64,000 nucleotides of DNA from NCBI GenBank assembly GCA_025041195.1, contig JAKCFM010000001.1, positions 806,001 through 870,000 of the forward strand, read 5' to 3'. The DNA comes from Halobacteriales archaeon YIM A00013. GTDB taxonomy: Archaea; Halobacteriota; Halobacteria; Halobacteriales; Haloarculaceae. Shown here piece by piece: positions 7,691-9,426 of this stretch; position 1 is the stretch's first letter; each line of letters opens with the position of its first letter. Under the pieces are notes generated by a model. That model made no database searches. It saw nothing but the letters and a program-made list of their open reading frames with translations, and had not been told where the DNA came from. Position numbers and translations under genes: made by a program.

Positions 7691-7830
7691 TTGGCTAACG
7701 AACCTGCCTCGTGAATAGTTCACACGCCTTGGGTGCGGACTCTCTCACTGGGTGTCCACAATGGGTGCTTCTGGGTCTCAAAACGAACAATCGCACTGGC
7801 CAGCGCGTTCCCGACCGCACCTCGCAGAAG

Positions 7831-8000
7831 GTGAACTACCCCGGGCGCGGTGGCCCGTGGCTTCCTGTTTCCACGACGTCACCAAAACGCGAAGCGTTTT
7901 GGTTGGCTCGAAAGACGCTCCACGTCTTTCGAACGTTGCCAGACTACGTCTGGCAGCCAGCCAGAACCTTCGGTTCTGGCGAACGCGCTTTGCATCCACC
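7831..8000 (-). ncRNA. Possible omega-RNA (reRNA) region at the tnpB 3' end
   Basis: TnpB elements encode a guide RNA overlapping the tnpB 3' end and finishing at the right end. Here the last 170 bp are rich in stem-loops, including the end stem around GCCACGGGC/GCGCCCGG and four further hairpins. A guide-RNA origin for part of this is plausible. The extra hairpins may be later insertions, and the boundary at about 8000 is arbitrary. Confidence 0.35.
7882..7980. repeat. Array of four short perfect hairpins
   Basis: Four consecutive inverted repeats lie in 99 bp. Their arms are 7882-7890/7894-7902 (CCAAAACGC, loop GAA), 7909-7917/7923-7931 (CGAAAGACG, loop CTCCA), 7937-7944/7948-7955 (TGCCAGAC, loop TAC) and 7960-7968/7972-7980 (GCCAGAACC, loop TTC). 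All arms pair perfectly although the four sequences differ. The array stays open in the tnpB frame. Confidence 0.9.
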
Positions 8001-8314
8001 TCAACCGTGGTGGACCCAGGGAGCGCAGTCTCCGCAGGCGTTTCTTCGGTCTCTCCCAGCCCTAGTAGTTCCTCGACTGCGTAGTCGATGCCCAATTCCT
8101 CCAATCCGAGTTGCTGCACATTGTACGAGGCGTTCTCATCGCGGTCAGCCTCGTATCGACACGCGGGGCAGTTGTGCTCACGAACCCAGAGGGATTTCTT
8201 CGATTCCACCCCACAGTTTGCACAGCGTTTGGTCGTCCCTTCCGGCGGAACCGTGACTACGTGACAACCGTTCTTCTCGCCGTGACGTTCGAACGTTTTG
8301 ATTGTCTCACGCCA

Positions 8315-8365
8315 CGCCATCACCAAAAATCTCAGATTTCTGGTTAGCAGCCGAGCTTCGCTCGG
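8315..8365 (-). repeat. 51-bp double-hairpin insert A inside tnpB
   Basis: The insert is in frame (17 codons) between residues that are adjacent in intact relatives. It contains hairpin CCGAGC-TTC-GCTCGG (8351-8365) and hairpin CCAAAAATC-TCA-GATTTCTGG (8323-8343, one mismatch). It is flanked by CCA on both sides (8312-8314 and 8366-8368), a possible short target duplication. On the minus strand it shares CTGCTAACCAGAAATCT ... TGGTGATGG with insert B. Confidence 0.85.
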
Positions 8366-8836
8366 CCACATCGACGCCACGTTCCGACCGTTCCTGTTTC
8401 CTTCGAGCATCCCGCTCACGCTCAGGTCTTCGAGAAACACTGCGTCGTATTGCTGAGTGTACGACCGACCGAGTTTCTCGCGGAAGTCCTTTCGTTTGTG
8501 TTTCAGCCGTTCGTAGGCCTCGGCCAGCTTTCGTCGGGCGGTCTCCCAGTTCGAGGAGTCGTACGCTTTCCGAGACAACGCTCTTTGCCGGTCCTCGATA
8601 CACTCATGGTCTGCTGATTCATCGAGCGGTCTGACCGCAACGCCGTCTGAATCGTGCGTGAATTTCAGGATACCGAGGTCAATTCCTACCGTATCCTCCG
8701 GATTGATGGTCTCAATCGCCGGTTTCTCGGGGTAGTCCGGGTCGCGGTCTACGACCACCGAAGCATACCACTTCCCGGATTTCTCCTCTTTCAGACGGAC
8801 TTCTTTGATGGTGGCGTCGTCGGGAAGTTTGCGGTG

Positions 8837-8892
8837 TCGCCAGAACGCGTGCGTTCTGACTGCTAACCAGAAATCTTCGACTTCTGGTGATG
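8837..8892 (+). repeat. 56-bp double-hairpin insert B inside tnpB, inverted relative to A
   Basis: The insert separates GACTAC from CACCGCAAACTTCC in the tnpB coding sequence and shifts the frame (56 is not a multiple of 3). It contains hairpin CAGAACGC-GT-GCGTTCTG (8841-8858, perfect) and hairpin CCAGAAATC-TTC-GACTTCTGG (8867-8887, one mismatch). On the plus strand it carries the same CTGCTAACCAGAAATCT ... TGGTGATGG segment that insert A has on the minus strand. Confidence 0.85.
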
Positions 8893-9426
8893 GTAGTCGA
8901 GGGCTATCGCCCCGATTTTCGAGAGCGTCAGAATGGCGTGTTCGGTGCGGCCCGTGTTACTATCCACGTCGAAGCCTGACTGATTGAACACGATACTGCG
9001 GTACTCTCGCGGCGACTTCCACCTCAGCTTCCCGACTTTGTACCCCTTCTCTTTGAGGGATGTGAGAACGCTCAAACTGGAATAGATACGACGGACGGCC
9101 ATCTGCAAGCACTTCGCGTTCACCGTTTTCCATACCGACCACTCGCGCTTCTAGCCGGGGAGCCTGTTCTGGAGGGTGGTGTAACTGGGTTTGTCGCCGT
9201 CTGGAGCGGAATCGTACTTTCCGAGCGCGTGATTATACACTTGCCGACAGATATTGATGTGTCTGCGGGCTTCGGTAGCCACGTCATCCGTCGGGTACGC
9301 TCGGTACTTGTACGTCTGCTCCACTACACCTCAACTGGAGTGTGGGCTACTTAACCATTCGCTTTAAGTCGGTCGGTTTGTCGGATTCAGCCACGGGTAC
9401 TGTTCCCCGTGGAATTCTCCTTGAAT

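Follow-up and report, generated by a model that had tools for sequence, protein, structure and literature searches.

Two inserts in a haloarchaeal tnpB gene as probable copies of a very short double-hairpin mobile unit

The two inserts, A and B, that interrupt a tnpB-like gene in this window (the whole 64-kb stretch analysed, positions 806001-870000 of contig 1 in a haloarchaeal genome of 3.7 Mb) are very probably copies of a haloarchaeal mobile unit of non-coding DNA, as the comparison of occupied with empty sites indicates. On balance, the best overall account appears to be a mobile double-hairpin unit that moves by a Y1-like single-strand route, with A and B inherited from an ancestor of this tnpB. 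Among DNA elements whose mobility is well supported by comparison, the unit, at 51-57 bp, is very small, and it is found in most of the haloarchaeal genomes examined; it breaks or lengthens genes, and the same codons have been struck repeatedly. For annotators, the consequence is that TnpB and other genes come to resemble pseudogenes, or gain 17-19 residues.

Both inserts share one anatomy, TG|TC-hairpin1-TGCTA-hairpin2-GATG, and are placed in the window as follows:

8040..9324, minus strand: host tnpB-like gene of an IS200/IS605 (IS1341-type) element (PF07282, 2.7e-16; PF01385, 3.7e-16)
7877..7984, minus strand: array of two diverged double-hairpin units, four hairpins (39.1 and 33.4 bits; fold z -7.2)
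8318..8368, minus strand: insert A, type I double-hairpin element, 51 bp, in frame (51.8 bits)
8350-8366, minus strand: hairpin 1 of A
8345-8349, minus strand: linker TGCTA of A
8322-8344, minus strand: hairpin 2 of A (one G.T pair)
8318-8321, minus strand: terminal GATG of A
8369-8372, minus strand: target side of A, GATG
8837..8892, plus strand: insert B, type I double-hairpin element, 56 bp, frame-breaking, antisense to tnpB (72.0 bits)
8839-8860, plus strand: hairpin 1 of B
8861-8865, plus strand: linker TGCTA of B
8866-8888, plus strand: hairpin 2 of B
8889-8892, plus strand: terminal GATG of B
8833-8836, plus strand: target side of B, GGTG

Insert A, read on the minus strand, is TGGCCGAGCGAAGCTCGGCTGCTAACCAGAAATCTGAGATTTTTGGTGATG, and insert B, read on the plus strand, is TCGCCAGAACGCGTGCGTTCTGACTGCTAACCAGAAATCTTCGACTTCTGGTGATG; in a whole-genome search the two matched each other over 34 bp at 88% identity (E 1e-4). 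The first-pass annotation had described two inserts of 51 and 56 bp in opposite orientations, and its coordinates for B are exact; since GATG stands on both flanks of A, the placement at 8318-8368 is equivalent to 8314-8364, and the earlier 8315-8365 falls inside this ambiguity. The 72.0 bits of B are partly a matter of construction, since B is among the 22 sequences on which the covariance model was trained and A is not. Folded as single-stranded DNA, both inserts surpass shuffled sequences (z -5.2 for A, z -2.7 for B).

The same annotation had held that the coding sequence rejoins cleanly, which excision bears out: without A and B, one full-length TnpB frame is restored across ALDYH|RKLPDD and RNVASM|AWRETI, and its sole further lesion is a nonsense codon, TAG, at 9153-9151. 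Insert A contributes 17 codons and keeps the frame, and B (56 mod 3 = 2) loses it, also as first described. The array at 7877-7984, which the first-pass annotation lacks, sits within the C-terminal end of tnpB, after VDAKR, at the presumed guide-RNA end; judged from its sequence, the host gene at 8040..9324 is a pseudogene, marked by the TAG at 9153-9151, the frameshift from B and the 3' array. Besides A and B, a covariance model search of the 64-kb window found no further strong copies. A weak Rfam match to sot2652 (minus strand, 7818-7896; 17 bits against a gathering score of 61) is consistent with the array splitting the RNA at the tnpB 3' end. Similar diverged double hairpins (GACGT-TGCCAGAC...GAACG) occur near the 3' ends of several tnpBs (7877-7984, L222, L224, L232, L246, L027), and some of these may be native guide-RNA or end structures instead of insertions.

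The alignment with tnpB relatives that had been proposed as a check gave a mixed answer: in the closest relative, from a congener and 69-78% identical over fragments, A and B stand at the same codons, and 18 other TnpBs of the genus are uninterrupted at both sites (two are incomplete). Inserts at site B arose independently in two further lineages, three in all, and site A is occupied in the window gene and its sister only. On these alignments, shared ancestry explains the presence of A and B in the window tnpB and its sister, but the inserts are no constant part of the host element. The shared codons of the nearest relative, together with the related units at several tnpB 3' ends, could also be read as a sign that A and B are ordinary internal structures of the IS family, such as pieces of guide RNA, and not foreign at all; yet the 18 uninterrupted TnpBs contradict this for A and for B, and the same double-hairpin unit is also present in phosphatase, acetyltransferase and W|C genes (described below), which makes a native origin highly improbable.

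As a family, the units are recognised by fixed ends and variable stems. An exact pattern scan of named genomes yielded 39 stretches in Halocatena, Halorubrum, Halolamina, Halorientalis, Halalkalicoccus, Halomarina, Halarchaeum and others. Units with the type I anatomy (TC-hairpin1-TGCTA-hairpin2-GATG) are about 49-59 bp long; TGTC and GATG form the ends of 49 of 52 perfect units and the linker TGCTA is nearly fixed, whereas 63 units contain 40 distinct stem sequences. The two hairpins lie 2-4 nt from either end, and the ends are only loosely alike as inverted sequences. In the 22-sequence alignment, 98.4% of cells are paired, 12 of 20 pairs are altered on both sides, and stem covariation reaches 0.363 (0.102 in shuffled and 0.02-0.07 in slid controls). 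The 1198 stem cells comprise 1172 Watson-Crick pairs, 7 G.T pairs and 19 mismatches; the near absence of G.T pairs (7/1198) suggests that the hairpin is kept as DNA, not as RNA. A known RNA family was sought in Rfam, which gave weak, sub-threshold matches only. Although 46 of the 63 units have a length that is a multiple of three, stem lengths fix the total length, and no selection for frame is therefore claimed. Loops switch between TTC and GAA, which are reverse complements, in otherwise identical hairpins of occupied W|C genes in the genomes G004 and G005 (L144, L149, L151-L155, L171-L175), as if entire hairpins inverted.

The covariance model, built from the 22-sequence alignment and applied with a cut-off of E up to 0.01 (strong matches: E below 1e-9), matched 124 of 146 genomes of the haloarchaeal order. 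Beyond the order there were no strong matches, and weak ones in four genomes; phages and viral contigs had no match to the unit, and carriage by phages or viruses is unsupported. Model searches placed the family at 25 places in its own genome; this count, like all per-genome counts, is rough, since at most 37-46 candidates were scored per genome and palindromes match both strands. Within 1.5 kb of tnpB or tnpA lie 16 of the 25 places (0.37 expected), some of which, at tnpB 3' ends, may be native structure. In Halobacterium sp. DL1, a copy of 78% identity on a named plasmid lies within a gene annotated as IS605 transposase. The initial suggestion of a miniature palindromic mobile unit that the host element does not explain thus holds up: most haloarchaeal genomes contain the unit, its contexts are unrelated, and relatives have empty sites. 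There are further subtypes with different ends and linkers, subtype II being CGTC/GGGCA/GACG. At the ends of tnpB elements, GC-rich palindromes such as CCCTTTAGGGCGGGGAGG seem to harbour double hairpins of subtype II (CGTC ... GACG), as in L253, L254, L266 and L273 (around 1501-1560).

Occupied and empty sites can be compared in several genes outside transposons. A gene of the low-molecular-weight (LMW) phosphatase/arsenate-reductase type in the same genome (G000:C2:145340-145392) carries an in-frame copy of 17 codons, VAELRSAANQNSVNSGD; relatives in 26 other genomes align through this site without an insert. In the congener G005, a gene for an unknown protein has an in-frame copy, and a GNAT gene has a copy with a stop codon inside the insert. 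Two non-transposon genes (L251, L052) stay in frame and open. The in-frame tolerance proposed in the first-pass annotation therefore extends to A, the phosphatase copy and one unknown protein, but is not general: B, the GNAT copy and all W|C copies, the latter through an in-frame TAA, break their gene.

The W|C family consists of proteins of about 180 amino acids with the motif WCxPCxSxGC, has no match in Pfam or NCBIfam and, in five of the seven Halocatena genomes, is represented by 20 to nearly 40 matches each; its members were seen in G000, G001, G003, G004 and G005 (e.g. L121-L150, L151-L190). The unit stands at TGG TG^Y, in constant orientation, in five copies of G004 and five of G005. 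In the W|C tree, occupied copies are dispersed among empty ones, which points to at least eight separate insertions, three of them in G004 and five in G005. Gene conversion was considered as the source of the same-codon copies and rejected; the flanks of occupied genes show only background likeness, and since occupied pairs show no increase in identity around the site, these copies look like independent insertions. Tests of target site and replication strand could draw directly on these paralogues, occupied and empty.

The protein sequence of the W|C family is strongly conserved (dN/dS about 0.1), also among occupied copies, and most occupied W|C genes, like the TnpBs L225 and L247, are otherwise open. 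These observations would suit old, inherited inserts that are skipped or removed at the level of RNA or translation, by archaeal splicing or by a bypass as in yeast mitochondria, so that the genes remain functional. Against this stand the scatter of occupied among empty copies, the two orientations in one tnpB, the near absence of G.U pairs, the nonsense codon that the window tnpB has of its own, and one stop that is read in two of five occupied G005 genes once they are joined (the position of this stop is unchecked). Moreover, inserts are near-identical within a genome while their host genes stand at dS 0.4-0.8, and most insertions therefore look younger than the divergence of the genes. Splicing or bypass of old inserts is accordingly very improbable, and insertion of a mobile unit remains the preferred reading.

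Insertion takes place 3' of TG, mostly within YGRTG. At occupied W|C junctions the left side is GGTG, from the native TGG TGY codons, and the right side is GATG, the unit's own end; this difference excludes a 4-bp target duplication. No target duplication exceeds 2 bp, and a 2-bp duplication of TG is indistinguishable from a TG target. The target must be longer than GRTG, since GRTG occurs 10-18 times per W|C gene, both strands counted together; TGGTG occurs one to three times. In arrays, each new unit is placed after the GATG of the preceding one.

These features resemble several known classes of small repeats. The PATE elements (palindrome-associated transposable elements) of Haloquadratum are non-coding, have palindromes near their ends, make no target duplication and are associated with IS605; their ends resemble IS605-type ends, and the 52-bp terminal-only forms have lost the core and retain a single one of two near-identical palindromes (PMC3119063). 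The present unit is likewise haloarchaeal, IS605-associated and too short to code, with palindromes near both ends and without inverted terminal repeats, and its size is similar to that of the terminal-only form; it differs in having two unlike hairpins joined by a fixed linker, and the tnpA loci scanned revealed no parent IS (the separation follows the description of PATEs, not an alignment). The SMR-A and SMR-B elements of Haloquadratum lack a transposase and a target duplication, prefer IS605-type elements and have an enigmatic mobiliser (PMC3119063). The unit shares the preference for IS605-type elements (tnpB or tnpA stands within 1.5 kb at 16 of the 25 places), and several subtype II copies seemingly lie in terminal or near-terminal IS palindromes, as described for SMR-A (PMC3119063). 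Compared by description, SMRs are longer (80-110 bp, SMR-A about 110 bp) and have prominent inverted repeats, in contrast to the 49-59 bp and two adjacent hairpins seen here. A MITE is not indicated, as no transposon-matching terminal inverted repeat was seen and any duplication is at most 2 bp.

REP/REPIN sequences with a RAYT are similar in that they are short and palindromic, carry a tetranucleotide tag ahead of the stem (here TGTC or CGTC), vary in the stem and form clusters; the GTAG tag, however, is absent here (the tag is TGTC/GATG), the unit is double, and no flanked RAYT was found. REPs are single palindromes of 20-40 bp, listed from bacterial phyla, among which CGTC repeats lack a dedicated transposase (PMC3733652). 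With CGTC-tagged REPs (stem 8-9 bp, loop 4-5 nt, CCA tail) the tag agrees (TGTC in type I, CGTC in type II), whereas loops here are mostly of 3 nt and there are two stems. Rickettsia palindromic elements (RPE) are palindromic selfish DNA found in frame within protein-coding genes (review PMC10969869). The likeness is partial: units are in frame at A, L251 and L052 and gene-breaking at B and in the W|C and GNAT genes, and RPEs are about 150 bp long, confined in this comparison to Rickettsia, and mostly in frame, unlike the often gene-breaking 51-57 bp unit. A literature search, with incomplete coverage, found no description of this double-hairpin unit. Compact mobile hairpin units also include the mitochondrial double-hairpin elements of chytrid-type fungi and the sponge RHE; these are organellar, and the likeness to the haloarchaeal unit is one of form, with no homology claimed.

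The mobiliser is a testable question. Single-strand transposition of the IS608/ISDra2 type is characterised by fixed ends, hairpins near the ends, a short 3' target, no longer duplication and self-targeted arrays. Since the unit's fixed ends, end-near hairpins, short target and self-targeted arrays match these signs of IS200/IS605, a Y1-like single-strand route in trans is favoured, with roughly even odds by analogy. The unit would then move as a folded single strand; a putative nuclease-transposase, acting in trans, would recognise the two hairpins and short flanking bases, cut after GATG and after a GRTG-like target, and join the strand without copying a longer target, in a manner resembling the handling of their ends by IS200/IS605 HUH (Y1) enzymes. 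The ancestor of the window tnpB and its congener sister would have gained A and B, which, with the stop codon and the 3' array, would have left a dead tnpB here; a landing in a permissive frame would add 17-19 codons and leave the gene open.

Y1 genes and element content, however, show no association (the median is 5 matches whether or not Y1 is present): no Y1 exists in 14 of 34 strong-element genomes or in three Halocatena genomes, and none of 11 tnpA loci scanned, in a scan that was not exhaustive, had an autonomous IS with TGTC...TGCTA...GATG ends. The missing link suggests, as a distinctly less likely course, mobility through an agent other than IS200/IS605, be it another transposase, a recombinase or template switching, in which hairpin DNA is copied during replication. 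The frequent TTC/GAA loop exchange in identical stems is an expected product of hairpin inversion, and SMR-A (PMC3119063) and the CGTC repeats (PMC3733652) are likewise without a known mobiliser; the constancy of the ends (TGTC/GATG in 49 of 52) and of the target dinucleotide nevertheless favours a sequence-reading enzyme, and the strong IS200/IS605 association fits cross-mobilisation. Tentatively, the units might form a distinct, order-wide double-hairpin class with several end and linker subtypes, moved by a non-Y1 enzyme or process and homing preferentially into TnpB (IS200/IS605) genes, which they would recurrently inactivate.

Guide sequences of IS608 pair with the cleavage site, and the TGCTA linker may, by analogy, pair in a similar way. 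The triplet after the insertion site is TCG in four of five occupied W|C copies of G005 (L152-L155) and is rarer in empty copies; it may be an extension of the target.
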